Positions 22,192-38,826 of a stretch of 64,000 bases of DNA are shown piece after piece. The DNA is taken from positions 1-64,000 of IMG/VR virus record IMGVR_UViG_3300024180_000002. One strand, written 5' to 3'. The position numbers were made by a program, and so were the translations under genes. The notes under the pieces are model-generated. The model made no database searches. It was not told where the DNA came from and saw only the letters and a list, made by a program, of their open reading frames with translations. Within the stretch, counting starts at the first letter, position 1. The number at the start of each line of letters is the position of its first letter. The DNA is from a virus.

Positions 22192-23415
22192 TTAAAATAA
22201 TGAATCTGTTTTTAATTCTACTGGTTTTTCTACTGATCTTTTATTAACATTGTTAATAGCTTCAAAGAGATCATTGTTAACAACTTCTGGCGCGTTGTGT
22301 AATTTAGCTAATCTTAAAGAGTTTTTTCTAAACTCTTCTCTTCTTTCGTTATTGTTTGCTAATTCTAAAATCTGTGGAATAGAAGCTGCAATATCTTCTT
22401 TGTCTACGAAGATTGCAAAATCTTCAAGTTCTATGAAAGGAACTCCTTCTGTTCTGTGAATAACGTGAGTTCCCCAGTGTTTGTCAAATAGTGGTATAGT
22501 TCCCGCTGCAATAACCTCACACATTGCATATTCAATCATTGAACCATAGAGTCTTTCTGGTAAGTTAAAGAATTCTGCACCGAACATTGATTTTCCAAGT
22601 TCTGCCATTCCTTCTGCTAAATTATAAGGCCCATACATATACATTCTGTCTTCGACTTGTGGATATGTAACAGGGTTTTTGATTTCATGAACTTCAAAGA
22701 TATCTTCTCTTAGAGTTTTTCTATCTTCTTGTAAAAACATAGGAAGAGCTCCAATAGATCTTTCAACTCCTCTACATTCTGTTACGAAATTATTACCTTT
22801 CAATAGTTCCATAATATCGAACATTCTAAAAGGATCTTTAAATCCAGCAAATCTTCCAAAGTATGTAGTTCTTCTTTCTTGTTCTTCAACTGGAACCACA
22901 ATATTAGACCATGCATCATAGTCATAAGGATTAAGATTCATTTCGATTAATGGAGTATCAGGTGCATGTTCTCTTAATTTATTTGCAAAATTAGATCTTG
23001 CAGAATAGTTGAACATAGCGTCCATTGATTTCATGATTTCCCAATACTTATAATTCTTTGCTAAGTTTGCAGTGTTATGATCTAAGCAGTTTCCTATTTT
23101 AATAGGATTTTCTAAACCATAAATACAGTGCTCAATAAAATCTTCGTTGAATTCATCTCCTACTGATTTATGCGGATACGATGTGTAATATACTACATCA
23201 CTTTTTTCAAGTTCTTTAGCGATATTAGGAATATCCTTTCTTTTAAATTCAGTGCAAACAATATCTGTAGTTTTATGGCGAGGCCATTTCTTTTCTACCG
23301 CTGCATAAATCGTGGCATCATGGCCTTCTTTTATAAGCCAATTATAAAATTCGATTGTGTGTCTTGTGAGTCCACAACCTTCAACTCCTTTTGCTAATAC
23401 TAATGCTATTTTCAT
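22192..23415 (-). CDS. agt: DNA alpha-glucosyltransferase (Agt-like)
   Basis: This 407-residue protein is close in length to T4 Agt (400). The N-terminus MKIALVLAKGVEGCGLTRHT matches T4 MRICIFMARGLEGCGVTKFS, and the likeness goes on through FYNWLIKEGHDATIYAAVEK. Other shared parts are MNLNPYDYDAWSN (T4 DINMNINRWIGR region), a FGRFAGFKDPFRMFD segment, GVERSIGALPMF (T4 GLERSPAFIAI) and an EYAMCEVIAAGTIPLFDKHWG acceptor/donor region. T4 Agt adds glucose from UDP-glucose to hydroxymethylcytosine in DNA, protecting it from restriction. The sugar and base used here are inferred. Confidence 0.85.
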   Translation of the reverse strand: MKIALVLAKGVEGCGLTRHTIEFYNWLIKEGHDATIYAAVEKKWPRHKTTDIVCTEFKRKDIPNIAKELEKSDVVYYTSYPHKSVGDEFNEDFIEHCIYGLENPIKIGNCLDHNTANLAKNYKYWEIMKSMDAMFNYSARSNFANKLREHAPDTPLIEMNLNPYDYDAWSNIVVPVEEQERRTTYFGRFAGFKDPFRMFDIMELLKGNNFVTECRGVERSIGALPMFLQEDRKTLREDIFEVHEIKNPVTYPQVEDRMYMYGPYNLAEGMAELGKSMFGAEFFNLPERLYGSMIEYAMCEVIAAGTIPLFDKHWGTHVIHRTEGVPFIELEDFAIFVDKEDIAASIPQILELANNNERREEFRKNSLRLAKLHNAPEVVNNDLFEAINNVNKRSVEKPVELKTDSLF

Positions 23416-23765: not shown

Positions 23766-24032
23766 TTATTTTCCGTTTTCGTAATTATCTAAACCTTGAA
23801 TGTATGCTACTGCATCTAAGAGATTATCTCTTTTATGATTGTAACTTTCTCTTGAAAACTTAAGAGCAACTAATGCTTTAAACATATCAGCGCCACTTAC
23901 ATCATGGCCTGTCATACCTTTAAATATTAGGGCAGCTCTGTCCATGCCTTCTGAAAAAGGACCGTAATTACGATCCGCTTCTTCACTCCTGTTGTTTACA
24001 ATTTCGTTTGCTTCTTCTAAGATACTTTTCAT
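23766..24032 (-). CDS. DUF6378-like small phage protein
   Basis: This 88-residue protein has the pattern of a widespread small phage family: an RNYGPFSEGMDRAALIF segment near residue 21, a middle helix, then FKALVALKFSRESYNHKRDN and LLDAVAYIQGL. I assign it to the DUF6378 type from memory of this pattern. Function is unknown. It begins one base after the 117-residue gene upstream boundary and may be led by the promoter-like element at 24058. Confidence 0.6.
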   Translation of the reverse strand: MKSILEEANEIVNNRSEEADRNYGPFSEGMDRAALIFKGMTGHDVSGADMFKALVALKFSRESYNHKRDNLLDAVAYIQGLDNYENGK

Positions 24033-25219: not shown

Positions 25220-25259
25220 AAAAAAACCCGAGATAAAAAAATCTCGGGCTGCTTTTTTT
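25220..25259 (-). terminator. Bidirectional rho-independent terminator
   Basis: An 8-bp stem CCCGAGAT/ATCTCGGG with an A6 loop is flanked by A/T runs on both sides, so it can work in both directions. On the minus strand it ends the unit containing genes 27565-25278. Confidence 0.88.
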
Positions 25260-25277: not shown

Positions 25278-25493
25278 TTACAAATCTTCTGGAAAATACT
25301 TGTCAAGTGCTTCTAACTTATCATCAGCGTCAACTAACATTGATAAAGCTTCTTCTGCATTTTTATAGAAATCACCAGTTGAGTGATCTCCAATACCAGA
25401 TCCTTTATTTCCTAAAAGATCTAAAGATAAAAGTGCTTTTGATTTTTCAGCTAAGGCACTAGCTCTTAGCATTTCGATTAATTTCTTATTCAT
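25278..25493 (-). CDS. Small protein of 71 residues, unknown
   Basis: This 71-residue helical protein begins MNKKLIEMLRASALAEKSKA and ends ALDKYFPEDL. It overlaps the dehydratase gene by 4 nt and is the last gene before a strong terminator. No function recognised. Confidence 0.6.
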   Translation of the reverse strand: MNKKLIEMLRASALAEKSKALLSLDLLGNKGSGIGDHSTGDFYKNAEEALSMLVDADDKLEALDKYFPEDL

Positions 25494-26419
25494 AATTGAG
25501 TTTCTAGTAGTTTAAATGTTTCTTCTTTTAAAAATTCTTCAAAGGATAAAGGGATCATTTCTCCTAAAATAGCATTTACCTTTGAGCTATTAAGTGCGTA
25601 TCTTCTATCATGTCCTAGACGGTCTGCTACAAATTCAAATTCAGGAGTTTTGCCCATGATGTTTCCTATCATTTCAATAACTTCTAAATTAGTGTATCTT
25701 TCCTCTGAACCAATATTAAATACTTCGTTAATTCGGTCTGACATCATTAAGTTATAAATAACTAAAGTGTTGTCTGTTACGTCCATCCATTCTCTAACTT
25801 GCTTTCCATCTCCATAAACAGGAATTTTCTTTCCTTCTTTAATAGAGCGCATGATAGTTGGGATAAATTTTTCTTTATGTTGATGAGCACCATAATTGTT
25901 ACATGTTCTGGTAATAATATATGGAAGATCAAATGTTCTGTTAGCTGAAAGGACTAGCATGTCTGATGATGCTTTAGTCGCCGAATAATAAGAAGAAGCT
26001 ACTAGCGGAAATTCTTCATCCGCTACTACGTCCTTACTAATGTCGTCCATGTCGCCGTAAACTTCATCTGTAGAAATATGAATAAATTTTCTAAGATTAG
26101 GGTTTTGTCTAGCACACTCTAAAAGATTGAACGTTCCTTCAACGTTTGTTCTAACGAAAGGTCTTCCGTCTTTAATAGAATTATCTACATGACTCTCAGC
26201 TGCGAAGTGAACAAGGAAATCATATTCTCCTAGATCTTCTACTGTTACTTCGCAAATATCTTTCTGAATTAATGTTACTTTAGTTTTAATGTTATTTGGA
26301 TTTGCAGCATAAGTCATTTTATCAACTACTACAATTTCTGCTGTTGGGTTTTTTCTACCAATCGTGTTTACAAATTCAGATCCTATAAATCCAAATCCAC
26401 CAGTTACTATTATTCTCAT
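25490..26419 (-). CDS. rmlB: dTDP-glucose 4,6-dehydratase-like (RmlB/SDR family)
   Basis: This 309-residue extended SDR enzyme has the NAD-binding motif TGGFGFIG at 6-13, HFAAESHVDNSI, the STDEVYGDM substrate-binding stretch and the catalytic YYSATK (YxxxK). These are the family marks of dTDP-glucose 4,6-dehydratase, and the acidic/Thr site in STDEVYG fits. It is slightly shorter than bacterial RmlB (about 350). It overlaps a cytidylyltransferase-like gene by 4 nt. The pair suggests synthesis of a nucleotide sugar, for DNA glycosylation, for virion glycosylation or for altering host surface sugars. Confidence 0.85.
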   Translation of the reverse strand: MRIIVTGGFGFIGSEFVNTIGRKNPTAEIVVVDKMTYAANPNNIKTKVTLIQKDICEVTVEDLGEYDFLVHFAAESHVDNSIKDGRPFVRTNVEGTFNLLECARQNPNLRKFIHISTDEVYGDMDDISKDVVADEEFPLVASSYYSATKASSDMLVLSANRTFDLPYIITRTCNNYGAHQHKEKFIPTIMRSIKEGKKIPVYGDGKQVREWMDVTDNTLVIYNLMMSDRINEVFNIGSEERYTNLEVIEMIGNIMGKTPEFEFVADRLGHDRRYALNSSKVNAILGEMIPLSFEEFLKEETFKLLETQL

Positions 26420-26910
26420 TTGTTATTAATTATTTTAGCCGCTTCATCAGCTGTTAATGACTTTACGTTTTCTTCTATAATAGAAGGATTCTGTAAGATG
26501 GTTTGCTTAGTTATTAAATCTTTAATTCTTGTCGTAGACCAATTATGTGATCTAGTTGTATAAATAACCTCAATTGGCATGTGATCTCCTGTGAATCTTT
26601 TACCAATGTAATCATCTCCTAAAATTCTAACATCTGGTTTATAAAATTCCATTAAGTTAATAAGATCTTCTTCTGTTTGATATGTAACTACTTCGTCTAC
26701 GTATTTAATAGCCATTAAAGTTTTATATCTTTCGTATAATGGAATTACTGGCTTGTATTTAGTAAATCTAGTTTCCGAAGGATCTCTTTGCAGAAATACC
26801 ATAAAGTAATCACAGTGTTCTTTTGCTGTTTCGAATGTGTAAATATATCCAGGGTGAAGAAGATCGAAGTTCCCTGCTGTAAATCCTATTTTACCTTTAT
26901 TTTGATCCAT
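26416..26910 (-). CDS. Cytidylyltransferase-like nucleotidyltransferase
   Basis: This 164-residue protein has the TagD/RfaE-C type fold signature: GFTAGNFDLLHPGYIYTFE near the N-terminus and WSTTRIKDL as the second nucleotide-binding motif. The first motif is normally H-x-G-H and here reads HPGY, so the second His is a Tyr. The rest, with FYKPDVRILGDDYIGKRFTG, fits glycerol-3-phosphate or sugar-phosphate cytidylyltransferases. The gene overlaps the RmlB-like gene downstream (4 nt) and the 81-residue gene upstream (14 nt). Reduced activity or an unusual substrate are both possible. Confidence 0.75.
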   Translation of the reverse strand: MDQNKGKIGFTAGNFDLLHPGYIYTFETAKEHCDYFMVFLQRDPSETRFTKYKPVIPLYERYKTLMAIKYVDEVVTYQTEEDLINLMEFYKPDVRILGDDYIGKRFTGDHMPIEVIYTTRSHNWSTTRIKDLITKQTILQNPSIIEENVKSLTADEAAKIINNK

Positions 26911-27142
26911 TTATTTTATTTTCTTGTAACTTAATTCTGAGCCACAACTGGTGAATAATTATTTCAATAGATTTTTCATCATCTTCTTCAAGTGCAGTGA
27001 TGATAGTAAAGTTATCAACTAATTTTCTAGCTCCATCTAGATGGGAAAGACTAGAACATGAATCAATCACAGTTTCGATTTTCTCTATCGCTTGAATTGA
27101 CCATGTGTTAAAGTTTTCGGGTCTGAAGATAATGTTATCCAT
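26897..27142 (-). CDS. Small protein of 81 residues, unknown
   Basis: This 81-residue protein begins MDNIIFRPENFNTWSIQAIE and is mostly helical. It overlaps the cytidylyltransferase-like gene by 14 nt and lies 30 nt after the methylglyoxal synthase gene. No function recognised. Confidence 0.55.
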   Translation of the reverse strand: MDNIIFRPENFNTWSIQAIEKIETVIDSCSSLSHLDGARKLVDNFTIITALEEDDEKSIEIIIHQLWLRIKLQENKINGSK

Positions 27143-27172: not shown

Positions 27173-27565
27173 TTATATTTTATATTTAGATCTATACCAC
27201 TTGATAAGAATACTTGCAGTGCTGTAGTTGGTAGCCAAGGGGATGTCATGGACATCGCAAAGTCTCATTAGCATTGATATATCTACATCATGTGGATGTT
27301 TATCTAGAGGGTCTCTCATGAATATTACGCCTGTGATTTCTCCTCTAACTACCATTGCCGCTATTTCAGCATCTCCACCTAGAGGACCACTTTGAACAGT
27401 AGAAACTCTATCAATTCCAGCATGCTCTACCTTTTTCCCCGTAGTTCCTGTGGTAACTATGTCTACTGCATCACTGTTAAAGAAATCTAATCTCTTAGAT
27501 ACAAATGCTACCATGTCTGCTTTTTTGTTATCGTGCGCAATTAATGCGAATCTCATCTTGTCCAT
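27173..27565 (-). CDS. mgsA: Methylglyoxal synthase
   Basis: This 130-residue protein is a clear MgsA-type enzyme with all key motifs: ALIAHDNKK (the His-Asp site), TTGTTG (phosphate binding), SGPLGGDAEIAA (the catalytic Asp of GPxGGD) and RDPLDKHPHDVDISMLMR (His and Asp of the active site). It ends soon after LATNYSTASILIKWY, a little shorter than the bacterial enzyme (about 150). The enzyme converts dihydroxyacetone phosphate to methylglyoxal and phosphate. It is the first gene after a terminator, so it leads the unit that continues through the cytidylyltransferase and RmlB-like genes. It is an unusual metabolic gene for a phage. Confidence 0.88.
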   Translation of the reverse strand: MDKMRFALIAHDNKKADMVAFVSKRLDFFNSDAVDIVTTGTTGKKVEHAGIDRVSTVQSGPLGGDAEIAAMVVRGEITGVIFMRDPLDKHPHDVDISMLMRLCDVHDIPLATNYSTASILIKWYRSKYKI

Positions 27566-27576
27566 ACTCTATTAAT

Positions 27577-27606
27577 AAAAAATGCTCTGTAGTTATACAG
27601 AGCATT
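27577..27606 (-). terminator. Rho-independent terminator
   Basis: A 10-bp perfect stem AATGCTCTGT/ACAGAGCATT with a 6-nt loop is followed on the minus strand by TTTTTT. It ends the packaged-protein cassette before mgsA. Confidence 0.87.
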
Positions 27607-27632
27607 CTTAAATTGTTTAAATATTTTAAAGA

Positions 27633-29504
27633 TTACCAGCTAGCAGCCCATACAAATTCAAAGTTATGTTTCTTACAAAACTTTTCAATCATATCTGAAA
27701 CCTTAGCTTGAGCAGCTTCGTACTTAGCGTAATCTCTTCCATCTATAATATTATAAGCGCTTTCTCCATATTCATCAGGATGTCTTAATTCTCTTGGCTC
27801 GTCAGTCTTATAATAAACTTTCTTTTCAGCCGTTCTAATATAAGGCATTCTTAATTCTATTCTTCTATGTGCTTTTCTTCCGCTTGCCTTTGCGATGTCA
27901 TATTGCTTTTCGATTCTTGGCTTTAATCTAGTCCATTCGGCTAATATTTTATCATTAGCTTTAAAACCTGCTAGGATAGTTTTCATGTCAAATTCTACTC
28001 CGTTTACTCTTTTGTAATCTTTGAAAACTCCAACTACATCATCCATAAATTTATCAAAGCTAGAAATAGATTGATAAGAACCATGTACAGTTCCCATACC
28101 CCAATCATCTTCTACCTTTCCAGTTGATACTTTTTTGGTTCCATTGAATAATTTTGCAAATGAATAATTAGGTTTACGCGTTGAGTTGTTAGACTGAAAC
28201 TTAAATACTTCATGTTTCCATGATTTTCCTCGAAGCTCAATGCTCAAACATAAGTTACCTCCATAATTCCATTCTGATCTATAAACTCTACATTTGAATT
28301 GAATTTTTGGAAATTCCTTTTTTAAACGTTCAGCCATTTGTAAACCATTACCGAAGTTAGATTCTCTTTTGTATGCTTCTTTACATTCTTTAGATTTTCT
28401 AGCAATAGCTAAAACCTTACTTATTGTATAGTATGTTTCTGAATCGAATATTTCATCATCTGTTTCTTTATCTAAAATAACATCTTCATTAATAGATTTT
28501 AAATGAGTCAGTTTAGTGGATGTTGATTCTGCAAATGCTTCAATATCCCATTGGATTCTTTGCATTGGATCATCACCTCTAAAGTTTTTCTCAACCCAAT
28601 CAATAAGACCTGGTTCGAATTGGGCGTTTTGTGCCATATCATAGGCATTCTTCCAACCGTCGTTTGATGCAACGTCTTCTAACCATTGGTCATATTTCCT
28701 TTGAGTCCATCTTACTTTCTTAACAGCTTTCTTATGAGGACCAGCTCCTAATGTTGACTTTACAGTATTATAATGGTCTGGACCAGCAAATACGCCTTCT
28801 GCCCATTCTTGATCTCTTTTATTACCGTCCCAATATTTAATTTCTTTTCTGAATCTTCTTAGTGAATAATTACCACCTTCAATTTGTTTACGCTTTGTTA
28901 CTTCTCCTTGTCTGTAACCTATTTCAATCTTCTTTTCTTCGGCAGTTTTAGGATCCATTTCAAAATGTAAAGATTTTACTAAATCTGCAATACCGTCAAA
29001 CTTACCTTCATTAACCGATTCTAAAATAATAGAATTTAGCTTTACTTCTTTATTAAATCTAGCGCTGCGTACATCGTCAGTTACTTCTAACTTAACACCA
29101 TACATTGCAGTTAATTTTACCTTTACTTTTTTACCATTATGTTCTGCTTCAAATTCTTTAAATGCATTTGCCTGTCGGCCATAATCCGTAATTTCATAGT
29201 TTCCATCTTCTGTATCAAATATAGTACCGATGCTAATTTTATTAAGAACTCTTGCACCCATCATAGATATTTTAGAAGAAGATATTGTTTTACCTTCATC
29301 AAGTGATCCGAAAGATTCAAATGATATAATGTTTTTCATTTCGCGTTGTTTCTTTTTATTTCTCTTCTTCTTATACTCTTCTTCGGCATCTCCTTTTCCG
29401 GCTGGAATATCCCCTGATCCAACTGATGTTTCAGATGGTAAAGAGACTTCTCCCATTCCGGCCATATCGCCAAGTGATAAGTTTTCGTTTTCGTTTAATT
29501 CCAT
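27633..29504 (-). CDS. Putative packaged polyprotein with gp21-like cleavage sites
   Basis: This 623-residue protein opens with a low-complexity leader (GMGEVSLPSETSVGSGD, then EEEYKKKRNKKKQRE). This is followed by an internal CTS-like segment MKNIISFESFGSLDEGK with an LDE|G site at 68-71. More sites of the same type are VNE|G at 164-167 in ILESVNEGKFDG and INE|D at 338-341 in HLKSINEDV. The parts between are basic, mixed alpha/beta and unrecognised. The last part (about 430-623) is rich in Lys, Arg and aromatic residues and could bind nucleic acid. It is the final gene of the cassette, 3 nt after the 105-residue gene and followed by a strong terminator. Confidence 0.6.
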   Translation of the reverse strand: MELNENENLSLGDMAGMGEVSLPSETSVGSGDIPAGKGDAEEEYKKKRNKKKQREMKNIISFESFGSLDEGKTISSSKISMMGARVLNKISIGTIFDTEDGNYEITDYGRQANAFKEFEAEHNGKKVKVKLTAMYGVKLEVTDDVRSARFNKEVKLNSIILESVNEGKFDGIADLVKSLHFEMDPKTAEEKKIEIGYRQGEVTKRKQIEGGNYSLRRFRKEIKYWDGNKRDQEWAEGVFAGPDHYNTVKSTLGAGPHKKAVKKVRWTQRKYDQWLEDVASNDGWKNAYDMAQNAQFEPGLIDWVEKNFRGDDPMQRIQWDIEAFAESTSTKLTHLKSINEDVILDKETDDEIFDSETYYTISKVLAIARKSKECKEAYKRESNFGNGLQMAERLKKEFPKIQFKCRVYRSEWNYGGNLCLSIELRGKSWKHEVFKFQSNNSTRKPNYSFAKLFNGTKKVSTGKVEDDWGMGTVHGSYQSISSFDKFMDDVVGVFKDYKRVNGVEFDMKTILAGFKANDKILAEWTRLKPRIEKQYDIAKASGRKAHRRIELRMPYIRTAEKKVYYKTDEPRELRHPDEYGESAYNIIDGRDYAKYEAAQAKVSDMIEKFCKKHNFEFVWAASW

Positions 29505-29507
29505 ATC

Positions 29508-29825
29508 TTAATATTCAAATGGTGGAGTTCCATAATCATCTTGTTCGATGCCATACCATACTCCTGATACTTGTAAATACCACCATCCATATTTAGTGTC
29601 GTCTACTACTTTAAATTTCTTAGGTAATTTAACAGATTTTTTTGGAGCTCTAGCAATATACTTTAAAACTGGAACACCATCGTCCCATGTTTTTTTAGTA
29701 GATCTTGCTTGAACTGATTGTCCATCTGAAAACGCATCAAATGCTTTTGCATCTTCTATTTCATCTGCTAATAAATCGATAGCTGATTCATTAATGTATT
29801 GTTCAAATAATTTTACTTTTTTCAT
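29508..29825 (-). CDS. Small protein with CTS-like N-terminus
   Basis: This 105-residue protein begins MKKVKLFEQYINESAIDLLA, a near-ideal capsid-targeting peptide with a candidate INE|S cleavage site at 11-14. The mature part would be a small basic beta-rich domain ending KYGWWYLQVSGVWYGIEQ. It is probably an internal head protein cut by the phage protease. Start and stop lie 1-3 nt from its neighbours, so it belongs to the late cassette operon. Confidence 0.65.
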   Translation of the reverse strand: MKKVKLFEQYINESAIDLLADEIEDAKAFDAFSDGQSVQARSTKKTWDDGVPVLKYIARAPKKSVKLPKKFKVVDDTKYGWWYLQVSGVWYGIEQDDYGTPPFEY

Positions 29826-29826
29826 T

Positions 29827-31161
29827 TTACCAAACTATGTTTTTATTATCCCATTTAGCCATTCTTTGCTTAAGCTCTAGTGCTTTACGCTTAGCATCTC
29901 TCATATACCAAGAACTTGATGAACCGAATTTTTCTTCTTCAGTTTTCATATTAACGTATGCTGAAACATATCCTTGATAATCTGACAATATATTTGCAAT
30001 ATAATTGGTTAAATCTCTAGGTCTAATTTCTCTTCCTTTAGGGTCTTTTCCTATTGTTAATTCGTTATAGTTTCCTAATTCTTTTTTAGCTAAACCAGCC
30101 ATTAAGAATTGGTGTGCATCTTCGATAATTTCTTTAACTTTCTTGTCTATTTTATCTGGGTTATCAGCTTTCTTCGCAAGAATATCGTTATACCTTGTTA
30201 AGTTATCCTCTTTGATTTTCTTAGGGTTTGTAAGTGCAGTAGCTCCAGATTTTGCCTCTGCTCTTGCAGATGTCTTATCATCGGTAGATAAAGAAGCTCT
30301 TAATGTGTCTAAATTAATAATGTAACATTCGTCAGACATTTCCGCAATTCTTTTAATGTTACCTAATCCCGTTCCACTATATTGGTTGTGTGATTTGTTA
30401 ACACCGACAGTATCTTTAGATCCAGGGTATTTACCCATGTTCTTAAGTCTTCTTGTGTTTTTCTTACCACCTATTGTGTCGCTGTTTCTATTCCATATTG
30501 AATCGTTCTGAAACATTTCATTTTTTCCATTAGAAACAGCTAATAAACAATTTCCAGGAATCATTTCAACATATCTTCCGGAAGAAGGAGCATATTCATT
30601 TTCTTTTTCATTTCTAGAAATCCAAAATACAATTACGTTTCCGAATGTTTTTGCTTTCTTATAAACTTCAACTGGGTTGCTATTAGAAATTATCATATCA
30701 TCGGTAACTTTATCTAGTGCTACTTTAGCAAGACCGTATATACCTTTAATTAATTCCTTACCACCTTTTTTGATGTCTATTAATCCTCTTAACTTGGAAG
30801 AAGCTAGAGCTTCATTAAGTTCTAAAGATTCAGTTGCTCTGTATTTTGCAAATTTACCCTTTTTAATTGTTTTAACTAATTCAGCTTCGCTATCGTCCAT
30901 GTGACCATATACATCATTATGTGTTGCTGCGTTTACTATTTCACCAGCATCACCAATAAAATAAGTTCCTCCTGCATATTCGTCTCCATCCATATCTAGA
31001 TCAAAACCACCGGAATCTAATGAATTTTTAGAAATTGTGAATTCTTTTCCGTCTGCTTTTGAAAGAGCAGCTGCTAATTTTTTTGCTATTTTAGCAGTAT
31101 CTTTCTGCTTCATAACCTTTGCTTCATTGATAAAATTATCGAAGTTAGTATATAGTTTCAT
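29827..31161 (-). CDS. Putative packaged two-domain protein with CTS
   Basis: This 444-residue protein begins MKLYTNFDNFINEAKVM, with INE|A at 11-14, and contains a second site LNE|A at 115-118 in ESLELNEALASS. Cleavage at both would give a roughly 100-residue acidic domain and a basic C-terminal part of about 327 residues. The large part has SDECYIINLDTLRASL and a C-terminal Lys/Arg-rich helix. I do not recognise its fold. A late promoter candidate lies 24 nt upstream, so this gene starts the last late transcript of the cassette. Confidence 0.62.
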   Translation of the reverse strand: MKLYTNFDNFINEAKVMKQKDTAKIAKKLAAALSKADGKEFTISKNSLDSGGFDLDMDGDEYAGGTYFIGDAGEIVNAATHNDVYGHMDDSEAELVKTIKKGKFAKYRATESLELNEALASSKLRGLIDIKKGGKELIKGIYGLAKVALDKVTDDMIISNSNPVEVYKKAKTFGNVIVFWISRNEKENEYAPSSGRYVEMIPGNCLLAVSNGKNEMFQNDSIWNRNSDTIGGKKNTRRLKNMGKYPGSKDTVGVNKSHNQYSGTGLGNIKRIAEMSDECYIINLDTLRASLSTDDKTSARAEAKSGATALTNPKKIKEDNLTRYNDILAKKADNPDKIDKKVKEIIEDAHQFLMAGLAKKELGNYNELTIGKDPKGREIRPRDLTNYIANILSDYQGYVSAYVNMKTEEEKFGSSSSWYMRDAKRKALELKQRMAKWDNKNIVW

Positions 31162-31185
31162 TTTATATTGTTTTGTTTATAATAG

Positions 31186-31193
31186 TATATATC
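31186..31193 (-). promoter_or_regulatory. Late promoter candidate for the packaged-protein genes
   Basis: Minus strand reads TTAAAAGATATATACTATTA, 24 nt before the ATG at 31161. Confidence 0.6.
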
Positions 31194-31195
31194 TT

Positions 31196-34100
31196 TTAAT
31201 GTAAGGAATCATGTGCTAATTCATTAGCTAAGTCTGGATTATCATCTGTGAAATCTGATAATTCTTCGTCAGTCATTTCTTTTCCATTAGAATATTCACC
31301 ATAACTAAAGAATGCATCTGTGAAATCTGGATAATCTTTCATATCAACATCTTCCATTTCTAATGAACTAATATCTACTTTCTTTCCTTTAAATTTAATA
31401 TAATTAGCTTCGTTAATAAAAGATTCTAATGTTAAACTAACAACTGGTTTAATTCCAGTTAATATTCTTTTTCCAAATTTAGAAAGACCAATTCCATTTT
31501 CACTTACTGTAAAGTATTTAGAATTTCTTCTCATCCATCTTTTATTATCGATTGATTTTTCTTTTAGAATATTATTGAATTCTTCTTCTGTTAATACACC
31601 ATCCGCTAATGCCTCGATCATTGCGTTTCTGACTTTAGCAGTTCTACCTGAAGTTTGTGCAGGATGATTATCGGTATATCTTCTTTTTATTTGAATTTTA
31701 GATTCTCTAAGACCCGGTTTCATTACGTTTAATTCCCACCACTGTTCTAATTGGTGATAAATATTTGCACCCATGTTTGAAATCATGAAGTCAATTACAT
31801 CATCATAATTGTCTTTTTCATCTTGATAAAAACCAGGAGTATCGATATATTCTTTACCCATTATCTTTCTAACTGCTCTTTCTGGCATAGCATCGATTTC
31901 TTTTAAAAATTCTTCGAAATCTTCATCGTTTTTAAAACCCTTAGCTTCAATAACCATTGATTCCATTAGGCCAATAGCAATCTCTCCAACTTCTCTATCG
32001 CCGCCGTCAACATATCTTTTGTTAAGTATTGCAAATTTAAAACCATCTGCTTTTATCGTATACATTGGCATCATACTATCACTATAGTCGTATTTGTATT
32101 TACCTGCTTTTAATTCTTTACCGATTGCAAAGAAATCTTTAGCTTTACCTACTAAATCTGCAAGATTATCTAAGTGGTCACCGGCGTCGTCCTTTTCATT
32201 AACTAATGATTCATAAACTCCTTTTTCAATGTTCTTGATTAAGAGTTTAGCACCCTTCTTGTCAAGTTCATTTTGAATAAAGTCCATCATTTCGTTGGGA
32301 TCTTCAGCATCTATACCAAATTCAGATGCTAAGTTTTGATATGCATCAAATTCCATATTAGAAATAGTGTCTTCTAAGTCTGCATACACATCTTCATTAA
32401 CTGCTGATTCTACCATTACTAGCCCTATATCCTTATATGCTATTTCATGCTCTCCACCGTCTTGATCTAGTGCAAATACTGATTTATCATGCCACATTGC
32501 AGCATTGTCATCGTTATTAGAATCAGGATTATAAATGATATATTCTTTTCCGTTTCCGGTTTGAATCATTGCATCATCTGCATCTCCTAATTTTTTTAAT
32601 AATGACTTTTTAGTATACCTTTCTTCAACAGCTTCACCTGACGTATATTCAAAATCATTATATAGTGCCTTTAACCATTCTAAAAACTCTGGAGTTTTCT
32701 TCATTACTTTCTTATGTCCGTATTCTTTAAAGAATTCTTTCTGAAAAGTATCAAATGATTTGTGATTACCTATCATTTGGTGAATGTCAGACATAACACC
32801 CTCACTGATAACTAATTTTACATCTTTGTTTTTACCAGCTACTGCATCATCTAGTTCATTTGTAAGAGCTTTCTTTTTTGCTGTTAAATCTATTAGCTGC
32901 TGTCTAGTTGCTGCTTTCTCATCACTTCCATCTTCCGCAGCGATGTATATCTTTACAATATCTTTCATCTTATTAACTGTTTCTCCAAATTCCTTTGAAA
33001 TCTTGTTAATAGATCTAGCTTCTAATATATTAGATTCTTCAATGTATTCTCCTAATTCAGGATCGTCCCATCCATTAGGATCGGCTAATACTGATTGTAA
33101 ATCTTCTCTTGAACCTGTCATTTCAACTTCTGGCCAATTGCCACCAGGGCCGTTCATTGTTAAAACTTTCATTTTAACATTATATTTCTTTAAAAGCTTT
33201 TTGAGTGTTTTTGATTTAGGATCTATTGCATCCATTACTACAGTAGCTTCATTTAAATTTTCGTCTAGCTTATCAAAGAATCCACCATGTTCACTTTGTA
33301 AATCTTCACCATACTTGTCGTCCCATATTTTAGCTAATTCATCTTTAGTAATTTTACCTTTATATTTTCCCATGATTTCAACATAGACACTACCATATTC
33401 ATATTCAAAATCTTCACCATAAGAAAAATCCCATGCCTTTTCAACATCTTTAATTGTAAGCTTTTTGGCTTCAGTAACCTTTGATTCATACCATCCGTTT
33501 TCGTAATCGTCATCATCTTCATAATCATCATACTCAGGTTCTTGATACCATGATTGATTTGGATCAGATTCTGCTTCTTCAGTAAAGTCATGTCTTTTCC
33601 AATTAAATCTTGGATCTTCAACTAATGCAGGGAATAATGTCTTTTTCTTTTTATCTTTGGTCTTTATTTTACCGAATGCTAAATCAATACCAAGTTGTCT
33701 TAATTCTTTAAATGAACCTTTCATTGTTTTAACATCTTCTTCAGTATATCCATTCATTGTAGCAACAAGATCATAATAATCCATTCCACCAAATTCACCA
33801 TATCCTTCATAATCCTTTTCCGTCCACTTGTTACCCATATTATCATACATAAATACTGTAATCATGTTCTGTCTTTCAGAACCTATTTGTGTGTTTGTAT
33901 CGGATGTAAGCCATGAAAATTGACCTTCAACTATCATCTGTTCATGTAACAATTGAGCACCAGTCGTTACAATGTTTAAATAGCTTTCAGGAATTCCATT
34001 TACAAAGTTATGTAATTCTGGTTCGAAATCTGGCATACCACATGCATATCTTGGATATGTTGCTCCTTCTGTATTTACAAGAATACTCATTCCATAATAC

Positions 34101-34414
34101 TCTCCAAGCTCACCTGATTCAGTGTTACAATATAATACAAATACCTGTGGCACTTGAACTTTAAAGTTAGATTGTAATGGATATTCGTTATGACATCCTA
34201 ATTCTTTAGTAGTGTATACGTCTAAGGAATGTAATTCTTTATCATATTTAGTTAATTCTCTATATGGAATAGAAGCTCTTTGGTTAAATAGATCTCCCCA
34301 ATAAGAAGGCTTTCTCAAGGAATATTTCCCAGAAACCTTTTTGTATACTTTATATAAATCAACGTTTTCGTTCATTGAATTTACAAAGCTTTCGAATGTT
34401 TTTTTAGTGCTCAT
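31196..34414 (-). CDS. Putative packaged polyprotein with eight gp21-like cleavage sites
   Basis: This 1072-residue protein begins MSTKKTFESFVNSMNENV, a CTS-like start. Along it the motif [ILV]-x-E recurs, usually as ES-x-h-x-E, with the candidate cut after residues 315 (KVTE|A), 389 (NLNE|A), 465 (NILE|A), 538 (VISE|G), 674 (AVNE|D), 740 (LVNE|K), 823 (MVIE|A) and 1002 (FINE|A). The fragments would be 315, 74, 76, 73, 136, 66, 83, 179 and 70 residues, which is the size of single small domains. Residues 323-345 and 360-382 share a WDxxYGEDxxxExG repeat. None of the domains has a recognised function. The protein is acidic overall, as are T4 internal proteins before processing. Confidence 0.68.
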   Translation of the reverse strand: MSTKKTFESFVNSMNENVDLYKVYKKVSGKYSLRKPSYWGDLFNQRASIPYRELTKYDKELHSLDVYTTKELGCHNEYPLQSNFKVQVPQVFVLYCNTESGELGEYYGMSILVNTEGATYPRYACGMPDFEPELHNFVNGIPESYLNIVTTGAQLLHEQMIVEGQFSWLTSDTNTQIGSERQNMITVFMYDNMGNKWTEKDYEGYGEFGGMDYYDLVATMNGYTEEDVKTMKGSFKELRQLGIDLAFGKIKTKDKKKKTLFPALVEDPRFNWKRHDFTEEAESDPNQSWYQEPEYDDYEDDDDYENGWYESKVTEAKKLTIKDVEKAWDFSYGEDFEYEYGSVYVEIMGKYKGKITKDELAKIWDDKYGEDLQSEHGGFFDKLDENLNEATVVMDAIDPKSKTLKKLLKKYNVKMKVLTMNGPGGNWPEVEMTGSREDLQSVLADPNGWDDPELGEYIEESNILEARSINKISKEFGETVNKMKDIVKIYIAAEDGSDEKAATRQQLIDLTAKKKALTNELDDAVAGKNKDVKLVISEGVMSDIHQMIGNHKSFDTFQKEFFKEYGHKKVMKKTPEFLEWLKALYNDFEYTSGEAVEERYTKKSLLKKLGDADDAMIQTGNGKEYIIYNPDSNNDDNAAMWHDKSVFALDQDGGEHEIAYKDIGLVMVESAVNEDVYADLEDTISNMEFDAYQNLASEFGIDAEDPNEMMDFIQNELDKKGAKLLIKNIEKGVYESLVNEKDDAGDHLDNLADLVGKAKDFFAIGKELKAGKYKYDYSDSMMPMYTIKADGFKFAILNKRYVDGGDREVGEIAIGLMESMVIEAKGFKNDEDFEEFLKEIDAMPERAVRKIMGKEYIDTPGFYQDEKDNYDDVIDFMISNMGANIYHQLEQWWELNVMKPGLRESKIQIKRRYTDNHPAQTSGRTAKVRNAMIEALADGVLTEEEFNNILKEKSIDNKRWMRRNSKYFTVSENGIGLSKFGKRILTGIKPVVSLTLESFINEANYIKFKGKKVDISSLEMEDVDMKDYPDFTDAFFSYGEYSNGKEMTDEELSDFTDDNPDLANELAHDSLH

Positions 34415-34434
34415 TTTTATTTGTATTTGTTTAT

Positions 34435-35514
34435 TTAAACTCGGTTAGGCTTTATTTTATATTTAAATTTACCTTGTGTAATAGAATATATTTGTAATTC
34501 GCTAGTTTTTCCAGGTAATTTCTTGTAATAGTGAAAAGCTACTATTTCATGATCTTTAGACTCTATAAAAAGGAATGGAGTAGGTATATCTCCTACTGCT
34601 GAAATTACATCGTCTTGTATTTCAGTAAATGTTCTAACGGAAGGCTCAGTCTCTATTATACTTTTAATTTTTTCTGCAGTTTTAGAGTCACTTAGCTTTC
34701 CTAATTCTACGTCATTAAATTTAATTACTAATGCGCCGTTATCTTTATCTCCAGGACCTATTTTAAAATCTCTTTCACTAGAAGAAAGGGCCTGAATATC
34801 TGTCTTAGTTAAATTTTGAATATGCTTAAATCTTTTTCCACCTACAGTTCCCCATTCATTTATCCAACCTCCACCGGCAGCCATATCTTTACCATCTCCG
34901 TCCGGGTTGATTTCTTCAATATTATATTTTACTGCGTCATATAATGCCGTTAACTTCGGTACATAAGTACTATTAATTCCCTGGTGTTTTGCACCTGTTC
35001 TCCAATTTTGTAACATGCCCTTTGACATTTGAGCTTCTTTTAACTCACATTTACCAAGGGGTGGTTTAATTGGTGACCACCTTTCATTATATAATTCTAA
35101 GTCAGTATCGGCCGCACCTCCACCTATTTTTATATTTTCTACAATATACGCTAGCATTATTTCTCCAGCACCAATTCCATTATCGTCTCTTCCAATATTA
35201 AACAATTCGTTTGCTTCGCTTTTATTTAACATTAAATATTGAAAAACTACTCCGAATGTATCGTCATCCATTTTAGAAAGCCATAACCTACCATCAGGTT
35301 GTTGTTTAACATCCTGTGTTGAAGTAAACTTAACACCTTGCCATGGACACTTATTCTTTTTAAATGTTCTATTAATTGAATTAAATAAATTCTGTTGGGC
35401 AGATTTACTTCCGGTCGTTGCAACTCCAATATAGGATTCTATAATTAACGCTTCATTTTCAGCGTTGGTTTTTGCAGCACTATGTAGTGCTCTTTCAAAA
35501 TCGTACCTATCCAT
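34435..35514 (-). CDS. Unknown protein of the packaged cassette
   Basis: This 359-residue protein begins MDRYDFERALHSAAKTNAEN and has a candidate gp21-type site IIE|S at residues 24-27 (EALIIESYIG). The body is mixed alpha/beta with GIGAGEIMLAYIVENIKIGG and a beta-rich C-terminus (LFIESKDHEIVAFHYYKKL). I do not recognise the fold. The start overlaps the ligase/NMNAT gene by 8 nt and the stop lies 20 nt before the 1072-residue polyprotein gene. Confidence 0.55.
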   Translation of the reverse strand: MDRYDFERALHSAAKTNAENEALIIESYIGVATTGSKSAQQNLFNSINRTFKKNKCPWQGVKFTSTQDVKQQPDGRLWLSKMDDDTFGVVFQYLMLNKSEANELFNIGRDDNGIGAGEIMLAYIVENIKIGGGAADTDLELYNERWSPIKPPLGKCELKEAQMSKGMLQNWRTGAKHQGINSTYVPKLTALYDAVKYNIEEINPDGDGKDMAAGGGWINEWGTVGGKRFKHIQNLTKTDIQALSSSERDFKIGPGDKDNGALVIKFNDVELGKLSDSKTAEKIKSIIETEPSVRTFTEIQDDVISAVGDIPTPFLFIESKDHEIVAFHYYKKLPGKTSELQIYSITQGKFKYKIKPNRV

Positions 35515-37378
35515 TGTTTTCTAAAAATTGTTTAAATGTTAATAATGATTCAGCAACTTCATTTGATTCTGAAGTACCTACTGAATCTTCTAATTTTTTC
35601 TTAAGTTCGCCATACATTTTATGTAATGCTTTGGGTGTTGTTGACTTAAATAATCCTTCATCTCCGTCTAGCATTGCGTTTCTAACCTGAGTCGCTGAAA
35701 TATTATTGTCTGTTCTTGGAATTTCAAATAATCCAAAATCACTCCTAACTCCAAGATCTTCTCTATAAGAATCTTTATTTACTTGGAATCCGTAAGTTTT
35801 CATTCTATCGCTTCCTGTTCCCCATAATACGGGTTCATAAGTTGGTCTCATTGCATTGAACATTGTATCAATACCTCCGGTTGGAATTACAAAGATTTCT
35901 TTTAAAAATGGATATTGTTTTTGAACCGCCTTAAACATATCTAATTGTGTCTTCTCATCATAAGGTCTTTTAAATGCATCTTCCTTTTTCTTATTCTTTG
36001 CTTTTACTAATAAAACAACCACAGGATATCCATTTTCTTTGTGTATAGTTTCTAATACTTTAGCATGTCCAAGTGTAAATGGTTGGAATCTACCAACAAA
36101 CATATTTACTAATTCTCCTCCTTGTTCAGGATGATCTACTTTAAGTGCTTCATTTAAATTAACACTTGTCTTTACTTTATTATGTAATATGAAATTATTA
36201 AAGTCGTATATGGAATTTTCATCGGTATTCTCTACAAATACTTTCTTATCTATAGTTTCTACTATTTGATTTAAATGCTCTAACATTTCTGCATTTATGA
36301 TATCGCTTTCCTTGCTTCTCTTTTTTCTAAAAGAACCTAAAGTTATTTTAAATAATTCTGCAAGTATTTCGTTTTCAACATAAGAAAGAGTGGTCTCGTT
36401 CTTAATGTATTTAGTATTTAGTTTAAAGGAATCTGAATCTGCAAAATCAGCTGATTCAAAGTTAACACCAATAAACTTAGCAGAGTGTTCTTTAACATAC
36501 GTATTAAACATCACTGACATTAATTCAATATATCTCCAGTCTGCTGTTTCTTCATTTAGTTGAATGTCTTTCATTTCAAATGTAGAAATAAATTCAATAA
36601 GACCAGCAATAGTAATTTGATACATGTGGCTTGATCTCTTATTTTCACTAACAGTTCTTGTAAAATCTTCTAATTTAAAAGATCTAGATTTTTTCTCATC
36701 AATAAAAGAAACTATTAATCCGTCAATTTCTACTTCAAAGTCTTCATTTAACGTAGGAGAAACTGCATTTGGATTAAATGTCTTAATCATCTTTTGAGTG
36801 AAAGGTAATCTTGCATCTGTATTTGGATCATAATCAAATGCTTCAGAAAACTCCTTATCTGACATAGATAAAACACTTATTAATTCTTCTTTTTGCATTT
36901 GAGATAGCATACCATCAAACACAATGCTAGGTCCTTGAACCTCTAATATCTTTGCCCATTTATTTAATATAATTGGATCGCTAATTGTTTTTCTAATCTT
37001 ACCTGACTCATTCATAGTTTGAATGTGCGTAAGTATTAAATTGTTTTTAGGTAGTTTAGTATATTTATATTCTGACACGTTTAATTCAGGTAAATATTCA
37101 AAACCAAATTTCCAATCATGTGGCATTTGTTCCTTTATACTAGGATCTAAACTTTGGATGTGCTTGACACCTGTTTCATATAAACCTACTATTGTTCTGT
37201 CTATCATGTTCATTCTAGAATCTCCAGATTTGTAATATTCAAATTTAGTCTGGTTTCTTCTAACGTGAAATGAAGCTCCTTGTATTTTTTCAGTTACTAG
37301 AACCCTGCTATTCAACATATCTTGAAATGCATTGATATTAGTTTCCTGAAATACTTGTCTTAGTTTTTTAAGTGCCAT
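35507..37378 (-). CDS. Ligase-type nucleotidyltransferase fused to NMNAT-like domain
   Basis: This 623-residue protein has two enzyme domains. Residues 1-300 look like an RNA/DNA ligase-family nucleotidyltransferase, with motif I TEKIQG (Lys31), a motif III-like WKFGFEYLPE near 89 and motif IV VEIDGLIVSF near 216. Residues 425-600 are a nucleotidyltransferase of the NMNAT/cytidylyltransferase fold, with GRFQPFTLGH at 429-438 and ISATQVR at 560-566. Between them lies VNLNEALKVDHPEQGG, a gp21-like LNE|A site (408-411) that would free the NMNAT part. The C-terminus ESLLTFKQFLENNG resembles a capsid-targeting peptide. Substrates (NAD, RNA ends) are inferred from folds only. Confidence 0.75.
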   Translation of the reverse strand: MALKKLRQVFQETNINAFQDMLNSRVLVTEKIQGASFHVRRNQTKFEYYKSGDSRMNMIDRTIVGLYETGVKHIQSLDPSIKEQMPHDWKFGFEYLPELNVSEYKYTKLPKNNLILTHIQTMNESGKIRKTISDPIILNKWAKILEVQGPSIVFDGMLSQMQKEELISVLSMSDKEFSEAFDYDPNTDARLPFTQKMIKTFNPNAVSPTLNEDFEVEIDGLIVSFIDEKKSRSFKLEDFTRTVSENKRSSHMYQITIAGLIEFISTFEMKDIQLNEETADWRYIELMSVMFNTYVKEHSAKFIGVNFESADFADSDSFKLNTKYIKNETTLSYVENEILAELFKITLGSFRKKRSKESDIINAEMLEHLNQIVETIDKKVFVENTDENSIYDFNNFILHNKVKTSVNLNEALKVDHPEQGGELVNMFVGRFQPFTLGHAKVLETIHKENGYPVVVLLVKAKNKKKEDAFKRPYDEKTQLDMFKAVQKQYPFLKEIFVIPTGGIDTMFNAMRPTYEPVLWGTGSDRMKTYGFQVNKDSYREDLGVRSDFGLFEIPRTDNNISATQVRNAMLDGDEGLFKSTTPKALHKMYGELKKKLEDSVGTSESNEVAESLLTFKQFLENNG

Positions 37379-37388
37379 ATTATATTAT

Positions 37389-38759
37389 TTATCTTCCGTA
37401 CTTTATGATTCCCATCAGCTGATTGATAGCAGCAAAAGTACCTGTTAGTTTCATAGTCTTTCCTTTATATACAAAAACTATTCCTTCAGTTGGTATGATA
37501 GATTCTACTCCTCCAATTCTATCTAATCTCTCTAGTTCTTTCATTACCTTTTCGATCTGAGTAACGCTTCCATCTTTTTTGATCTTTTCAGATTCTGATC
37601 TAATTTGATTATGTAGTCTTTGCATCTCTTTGTCTGGATTTGCAGCTACAAAATTAGAAGCATTCATAAGAATTATAGACCCTAGTTCTAAAAATAAATC
37701 TTCAAACGGTCTAATGTTTTCTTTATATTTCTTTTTAACATCTTCTTTGTCAAATTTCTTAACAGAAGCAGCTTCATCTTTTCCTATCTCCTTTGCAAGT
37801 GATCTCATATTTAAAGACTTTTTATCTCCATAAGCCCATCTTAATAATAAACCTTCCTTATAGTCTTGTTGTAAATCTGGGAAATTTGCATCTATTGTTT
37901 CTCTCCACCACATTTCATGATATCTAGAAACTTCGTCACCGTCTGTTAAGTTATAACGATCTCTTAATTTTTCAATCTGCTTTATAAATTTAGCTTGATT
38001 TTTATCAAAATTAATATCTTTACCTAGTTTTAAAATCTGAGGAGGAATTATTGTAAATGTCTTTTGAACATCGGCATCTACTTCCTTTAAAGCTTTGACT
38101 AATTCTCCTGCTATTTTTCTAGATCCTGTAATATTACCATTCCCATCAGTTTCTTGAATATCGTGAAATTGAAGAACATCTCTTTCGTAATAGATTACAT
38201 TTGGGTTTTTAGAATAGATTAATTCTATATTTATAAAATCTTTACCGTCATTAAATATGGACTGATCTTTAATTTTTGGAAGAGCTTCATTTAGATCTTT
38301 AGCTGCAAACACGTATGTTTCTCGCACTAAAGGTACCTCATGCTTTTCAAACATTTCTATAATACCGTCTAAATCAACGGGACTAATTAATTGACCTTTA
38401 TTTCTAGAAAACATCGTAACTCCGTTTTTTACGGTTGCTAATAGATTTTGACCGTCTGTTTTTTCAGTGGCTACCTCTTCAAAGTTTAATTCTCCTTGAA
38501 GACCGGACGTTACGATCTTTTTAAAATCTGCGAATGTTAAATCTTTTTCATCGAAAGGATGAGACATGTGACCAGCTGCACCGCCTTCTAAGATTAATTC
38601 TTCTTTAAGTGTATTGTATTTTTCAACGATATATTCGTCAAATGATAAAACTTTACTCTTATTTTCACTCATATAATGTGCAACATATTCCTCTCTGGTC
38701 ATGCCTTGTGCATCTGCGTGATGTTGAATAAAATCTACAAAGTTGTTATTTAGTTCCAT
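37389..38759 (-). CDS. KxDG-type ligase-family nucleotidyltransferase with cleavable N-terminus
   Basis: This 456-residue protein has motif I EKTDG (Lys100 as likely nucleotidylated residue), a motif III-like INIELIYSK, motif IV EGLLLRW and motif V EGIVFVYKGK near 425-434 followed by KLTG. This is the RNA/DNA ligase superfamily core. The N-terminus holds a CTS-like stretch VLSFDEYIVEKYNTLKEE and a strong gp21-like site LILE|GG at 55-60. The mature enzyme would start GGAAGHMSHPF. An in-frame Met30 could be an alternative start. It lies upstream of the ligase/NMNAT gene with a 10-nt gap, so the two ligase-type enzymes are made together. Confidence 0.75.
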   Translation of the reverse strand: MELNNNFVDFIQHHADAQGMTREEYVAHYMSENKSKVLSFDEYIVEKYNTLKEELILEGGAAGHMSHPFDEKDLTFADFKKIVTSGLQGELNFEEVATEKTDGQNLLATVKNGVTMFSRNKGQLISPVDLDGIIEMFEKHEVPLVRETYVFAAKDLNEALPKIKDQSIFNDGKDFINIELIYSKNPNVIYYERDVLQFHDIQETDGNGNITGSRKIAGELVKALKEVDADVQKTFTIIPPQILKLGKDINFDKNQAKFIKQIEKLRDRYNLTDGDEVSRYHEMWWRETIDANFPDLQQDYKEGLLLRWAYGDKKSLNMRSLAKEIGKDEAASVKKFDKEDVKKKYKENIRPFEDLFLELGSIILMNASNFVAANPDKEMQRLHNQIRSESEKIKKDGSVTQIEKVMKELERLDRIGGVESIIPTEGIVFVYKGKTMKLTGTFAAINQLMGIIKYGR

Positions 38760-38778
38760 GTATATAGCTAATATAATT

Positions 38779-38808
38779 AAAAAACTTGACCCGGAAAAAT
38801 CCAGGTCA
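38779..38808 (-). terminator. Rho-independent terminator
   Basis: An 8-bp stem (TGACCTGG with CCGGGTCA, one G-U pair) and a 6-nt loop are followed on the minus strand by a T-run (AGTTTTTTAATT). It lies after the 708-residue gene. Confidence 0.8.
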
Positions 38809-38826
38809 GTTTATTTTTATTTTTTA

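Follow-up and report, generated by a model that had tools for sequence, protein, structure and literature searches.

The presence of a methylglyoxal synthase (MGS) gene in a viral genome raises the question of whether the product is a working enzyme and, if so, what a phage would gain from it. The DNA analyzed here, referred to as the window, comprises 64,000 nucleotides (positions 1 to 64,000) of the IMG/VR record IMGVR_UViG_3300024180_000002, and the whole viral record contains 133,305 bases. The MGS gene was located at 27173..27565 on the minus strand, with an ATG start codon and 130 encoded residues. A first-pass annotation had given exactly these coordinates with the strand unstated; the plus-strand frame across 27173-27565 contained stops throughout.

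The window protein matched the Pfam MGS family with an E-value of 5.5e-13 and the NCBIfam MGS model NF003559 with 149.9 bits (cut-off 84). Its score against TIGR00160 was 140.1 bits, which is 6.8 below the cut-off of 146.9, and the three other main-clade viral proteins scanned (L070, L057 and L063) also fell below this value. A scaffold protein in which an alanine replaces the catalytic D71 (L084) passed both NCBIfam cut-offs; these cut-offs therefore do not track catalysis, and at the sequence level the catalytic residues are better evidence than family scores. A sequence search of the PDB returned 11 matches at an E-value of 0.1 or better, all of which were methylglyoxal synthases (best E-value 4e-33), and no match to the window MGS was found in PHROGs. 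The protein shares its fold and its catalytic and phosphate-binding residues with bacterial MgsA (EC 4.2.3.3) from E. coli, B. subtilis and Thermus, and its single-domain size is close to that of the short Thermus and Bacillus chains. It is 36% identical to E. coli MgsA but lacks the C-terminal tail of that protein, and some letters of the viral clade differ from the E. coli sequence, such as A66 in place of Q72.

In the available text of two papers on E. coli MgsA (PMC7843640, PMC1877815), H19, D71 and H98 are assigned to catalysis, K23, T45-G49 and S65 to phosphate contacts, and G66, D91 and D101 to substrate contacts. Upon alignment with the residues listed in this text, E. coli H19, K23, T45, T48 and S65 corresponded to window H11, K15, T39, T42 and S59, and G66, D71, D91, H98 and D101 corresponded to G60, D65, D85, H92 and D95. 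All ten named residues matched letter for letter, as expected from the first-pass statement that every catalytic motif is present. That annotation had also called for a survey of other phages. Viral contigs were scanned three times, with the best 80 of 172, the best 80 of 216 and the best 80 of 90 candidates retained, and this yielded 90 distinct viral proteins, behind which stand 211 viral locus identifiers with some contigs represented more than once. The active site was intact in all 90; in particular, H11, D12, K15, T39, T42, S59, G60, D65, F82, D85, H92 and D95 were invariant (90/90), and within the TGTTG motif G40 varied in one sequence and T41 in two. Pairwise dN/dS values had a median of 0.161 and a maximum of 0.386 (586 pairs with dS of 0.1-1.5), and the MGS protein is therefore under purifying selection.

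The MGS fold also occurs in domains of carbamoyl-phosphate synthetase and PurH, which belong to the same superfamily, and the first-pass annotation had named a nucleotide-binding role as the result that would overturn its reading. A non-catalytic, regulatory or nucleotide-binding protein is conceivable since the fold family includes such domains, and the passage of L084 through both family cut-offs points the same way. However, catalytic residues were kept in every viral protein, and the fold itself lay far nearer to true MGS enzymes. A structure model built from 40 aligned sequences had a mean pLDDT of 94.3, and its 26 best matches in the PDB were all MGS entries (E-value 2e-15, TM-scores 0.89/0.93), whereas the MGS domains of carbamoyl-phosphate synthetase and PurH/ATIC gave weaker E-values of 4e-6 and 7e-4 at 15-17% identity. 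Additionally, those domains belong to larger proteins, either a synthetase or a bifunctional enzyme, in contrast to the free-standing 130-residue window protein. We consider the non-catalytic reading very unlikely and catalytic activity of the window MGS highly probable; the enzyme named by the first-pass annotation is supported by both sequence and predicted-fold matches.

The surroundings of the gene are those of a T4-like phage. T4-type genes recognized by eye in the window include those for the portal, 46/47, 41, UvsX, a split polymerase, the clamp and NrdA/B, as well as UvsW, the primase and the ssDNA-binding protein. By tblastn, the portal matched 2407 phage records, in every case at less than 60% identity, and the named relatives among the 15 matches listed were phage PAU and the Prevotella Lak phages. 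In a search of 36 MGS-phage records, the major capsid protein Gp23 was matched in 24 (23 over the cut-off), including the six records (G001-G006) whose MGS is identical to that of the window, and it was not found in the window's own 133-kb record, which is probably a fragment. The T4-type portal in the window and Gp23 in the six identical-MGS records place the virus among T4-like phages. PhoH was present in 21 of the 36 records, including the window's own, where it lies outside the window; PhoH is common in T4-like phages and thus says little about phosphate. The 36 records are not independent because they were picked mostly by length and six carry the window-identical MGS. An assembly artefact or host contamination is hardly credible: the same gene in the same context recurs in many contigs, MGS occurs in records with Gp23, and the viral clade described below contains no cellular members. 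The point in favor of contamination comes from a search of a phage collection, in which all 22 MGS matches were unannotated scaffolds of uncertain purity; the four that were read were marked unverified and grouped with Bacillota rows in the first tree, and the collection matches were set aside as evidence for isolates with MGS. Carriage by a phage, as first annotated, is borne out by the T4-like context and by related viruses with the same gene.

The MGS gene appears to lie in a putative transcription unit on the minus strand, the features of which are as follows, in the direction of transcription:

27578..27609, minus strand, terminator-like hairpin between the upstream gene and MGS (inverted repeat with 14-bp arms and a 4-nt loop, then a T run)
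27173..27565, minus strand, methylglyoxal synthase, 130 aa (Pfam, NCBIfam, PDB sequence, fold model)
26897..27142, minus strand, 81-aa ORF immediately after MGS, without a family match
26416..26910, minus strand, nucleotidyltransferase (nearest solved relative glycerol-3-phosphate cytidylyltransferase; substrate a candidate only)
25490..26419, minus strand, dTDP-glucose 4,6-dehydratase-like sugar-nucleotide enzyme (319 bits, TIGR01181 cut-off 365)
25278..25493, minus strand, 71-aa ORF, the last before the terminator-like site (PHROG 1811, function not annotated)
25225..25250, minus strand, terminator-like hairpin closing the putative unit (consensus match only)

The hairpin at 27578..27609 is separated from the MGS start codon by approximately 12 nt and has a fold energy of -17.2. 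It is retained in two other loci (L020 and L028) and occurs with a swapped base pair in two more (L022 and L049); we infer that it is a putative terminator. The 81-aa ORF also adjoins MGS in near relatives, and the dehydratase-like gene overlaps the nucleotidyltransferase gene by 4 bases. Elsewhere the neighbors differ among loci, and MGS is retained across many different neighborhoods; in one lineage, a tRNA gene ends 13-14 nt before the start of MGS at five loci (L052, L053, L055, L058 and L065). A conserved partner gene was rejected, as even the most frequent neighbor cluster lay close to MGS in at most 15 of the 86 loci with a recognized MGS ORF (four of the 90 viral representatives had none; an earlier count covered 81 loci, one without a recognized MGS ORF). 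A glycerol-3-phosphate cytidylyltransferase-like gene was nearby in 12/86 loci, a thymidylate synthase cluster (an example was read by eye) in 9/86, an IMP dehydrogenase/GMP reductase-like cluster in 8/86 and a 5'-nucleotidase-like cluster in 7/86; T4-like genomes are rich in nucleotide genes anyway. The motif TAnnTTTG, which we take to be the Bacteroidota-type promoter motif, was absent from the 60 bases before the window MGS gene. Across 85 distinct upstream stretches such a promoter was seen in 7, compared with 3.4 (sd 1.8) in shuffles, which was unconvincing. In one lineage, MGS is immediately followed by a gene resembling flavodoxin-fold NAD(P)H oxidoreductases (a weak KefF-type match; L078 8420-9010). 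The cluster of a thioesterase-superfamily gene (L234 2611-3012) was nearby in eight loci, and in five of these the gene came immediately downstream of MGS.

In a first tree of 51 viral and 84 other rows, from which L088 dropped out, the viral proteins formed one clade with support of 100/99 and a stem of 0.98 changes per column. The clade lay within mostly Bacteroidota rows and one Acidimicrobiales MAG, with support for the enclosing group of only 89/76; the resolution of the tree is limited by the few alignment columns. A second tree of 141 rows (90 viral and 51 cellular, omitting the four phage-collection scaffolds and with the other cellular rows thinned) held 87 viral proteins together with an SH-aLRT of 99 and set L229, L231 and L232 apart. 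Two viral origins are not assumed, since constraining all 90 proteins into one clade gave a better tree (p-AU 0.83). We claim only the 87-member clade because the quick tree sets three apart, although a single clade of all 90 is not rejected. The 87-member clade contained no cellular members in the trees, and the cellular relatives were at most 58% identical to the window MGS (the best 80 of at least 595 candidates). The position of the clade among mostly Bacteroidota enzymes, together with the T4-like context, marks the gene as a phage auxiliary metabolic gene, apparently derived from a cell and fixed in the phage genome.

Translation signals and secretion signals point to the same host group. 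Shine-Dalgarno words preceded 2 of 38 window ORFs (1.25 in shuffles) and 42 of 793 MGS-locus ORFs (38.9 in shuffles), compared with 6 of 78 in Flavobacteriia stretches (3.9), 18 of 37 in T4 (7.0), 93 of 178 in a mostly Bacillota set (50) and 5 of 49 in phage PAU (0.9). The excess in the window and the MGS loci is small, like that in Flavobacteriia and unlike that in T4 or the Bacillota set. A type IX secretion type B sorting domain scored over the cut-off in 8 of the 36 MGS-phage records (L013, L018, L051, L061, L064, L078, L079 and L237; an example protein is L078 5926-7530), two of which carry an MGS identical to that of the window, compared with 0 of 14 control genomes. These domains suggest that phage proteins are sent to the host surface. 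The available text of two papers (PMC6949934, PMC7468147) confines type IX secretion to Bacteroidetes or their superphylum and already reports its sorting domains in phages. From the translation signals, the type IX domains of sister phages and the tree, Bacteroidota are the likely hosts. Within a host-type family, that of a Flavobacterium genome, MGS scored over the cut-off in only 65 of 299 genomes, a sample of a larger group with completeness unconfirmed; the phage may thus often supply a missing step.

Taken as a whole, the reading that we favor, and consider fairly likely, is of a working MGS that was derived from Bacteroidota and kept by T4-like phages for freeing phosphate and draining dihydroxyacetone phosphate (DHAP). 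In the distant past, a lineage of large T4-like Bacteroidota phages would have acquired MGS from a Bacteroidota host, and it would have maintained the gene under purifying selection since then. During infection, the enzyme would convert host DHAP to methylglyoxal and inorganic phosphate, so that phosphate would be freed from the triose pool and DHAP drained while host glycolysis feeds nucleotide synthesis, and methylglyoxal would be left for host detoxification. Searches of the 36 MGS-phage records for the glyoxalase, DJ-1 and aldo-keto reductase families gave no match in any record (36/36), and neither did a search for the triose isomerase family; the same searches were positive in control genomes (12/14, 14/14, 13/14 and 14/14, respectively). 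With no detoxifying family in these records, methylglyoxal must be dealt with by the host or cause harm, and with no triose isomerase match either, the phage apparently contributes a single enzyme, the product of which is left to the host.

The first-pass annotation had offered three uses, namely the freeing of phosphate for DNA synthesis, the redirection of glycolysis and the killing of competitors. Phosphate release is inherent in the MGS reaction and follows if the enzyme is active; a benefit to the phage through phosphate would be the likeliest single one, though taken alone it is slightly less likely than not. Redirection of glycolysis is about equally possible as a use. In its full form, which we consider somewhat unlikely, an active MGS would act as a carbon valve that drains DHAP against sugar-phosphate stress or speeds uncoupled glycolysis, with phosphate release incidental. 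It would proceed by the same DHAP reaction, and it is consistent with the frequent absence of MGS from host-type genomes and with the lack of a triose isomerase match in the 36 records, which leaves DHAP without another phage-borne outlet by that route; however, no glycolytic partner gene lies beside MGS across contexts. Phosphate is an inhibitor of bacterial MGS, which works when phosphate is scarce; this behavior fits phosphate recycling, and it fits a carbon valve as well.

Use of methylglyoxal for chemical attack or takeover, through modification of macromolecules of the host or of competitors, is improbable. The missing detoxifying families would agree with it, but the phage's own host and DNA would be harmed too, and no protective gene was found among the detoxifying families searched in the 36 records. 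It is without specific support, as is the killing of competitors, which is a guess. A benefit through phosphate, triose flux or both, rather than through toxicity, is on balance probable. A bolder version of the favored reading, which we regard as unlikely, would have the Bacteroidota T4-like lineage install a methylglyoxal bypass in hosts mostly without one, using the triose pool as a phosphate store for viral DNA and exposing the cell to a flood of reactive aldehyde, for the removal of which the phage makes no enzyme.

Viral MGS genes as such are already known. In the available text of two surveys, mgsA is placed on a 120-kb viral scaffold of the virotype Caulobacter phage Cr30 from Lake Baikal (PMC8066274) and named among the viral genes of a brine pool (PMC11252502); there, the gene is only listed, as an auxiliary metabolic gene, and its likeness to the window MGS is one of description. 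The papers listed by full-text literature searches included no study of a viral MGS enzyme or its clade. What is new here is the viral clade, its intact active site, the selection on it and its likely host group. The clade is easily overlooked in annotation because it is absent from PHROGs and had no match in a viral structure library at an E-value of 0.001 or better. If the favored reading is true, phosphate recycling from sugar phosphates would become a viral strategy open to testing in one of the major bacterial groups. Phosphate uptake genes are known from cyanophages, and the viral phosphate strategy would then extend beyond them. The enzyme is small, and its assay is simple.

Other genes of the window were also observed. 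An alpha-glucosyltransferase-like gene (22192-23415) suggests that the DNA of this phage of probable Bacteroidota may be glucosylated. An 88-aa protein (23766-24032) matched PHROGs labeled phosphofructokinase and, in Pfam, DUF6378, and the phosphofructokinase label looks doubtful. Two adjacent large proteins (35507-38759) both carry what we take by eye to be nucleotidyl-ligase-like motifs, and the C-terminal part of one of them contains a cytidylyltransferase-like domain. Several large uncharacterized proteins close to MGS (27633-40953) share a similar short N-terminal motif by eye (for example KLFEQYINE, FESFVN and NFDNFINE). The motif is absent from MGS itself and is presumably similar to the signals that target T4 internal head proteins to the capsid.
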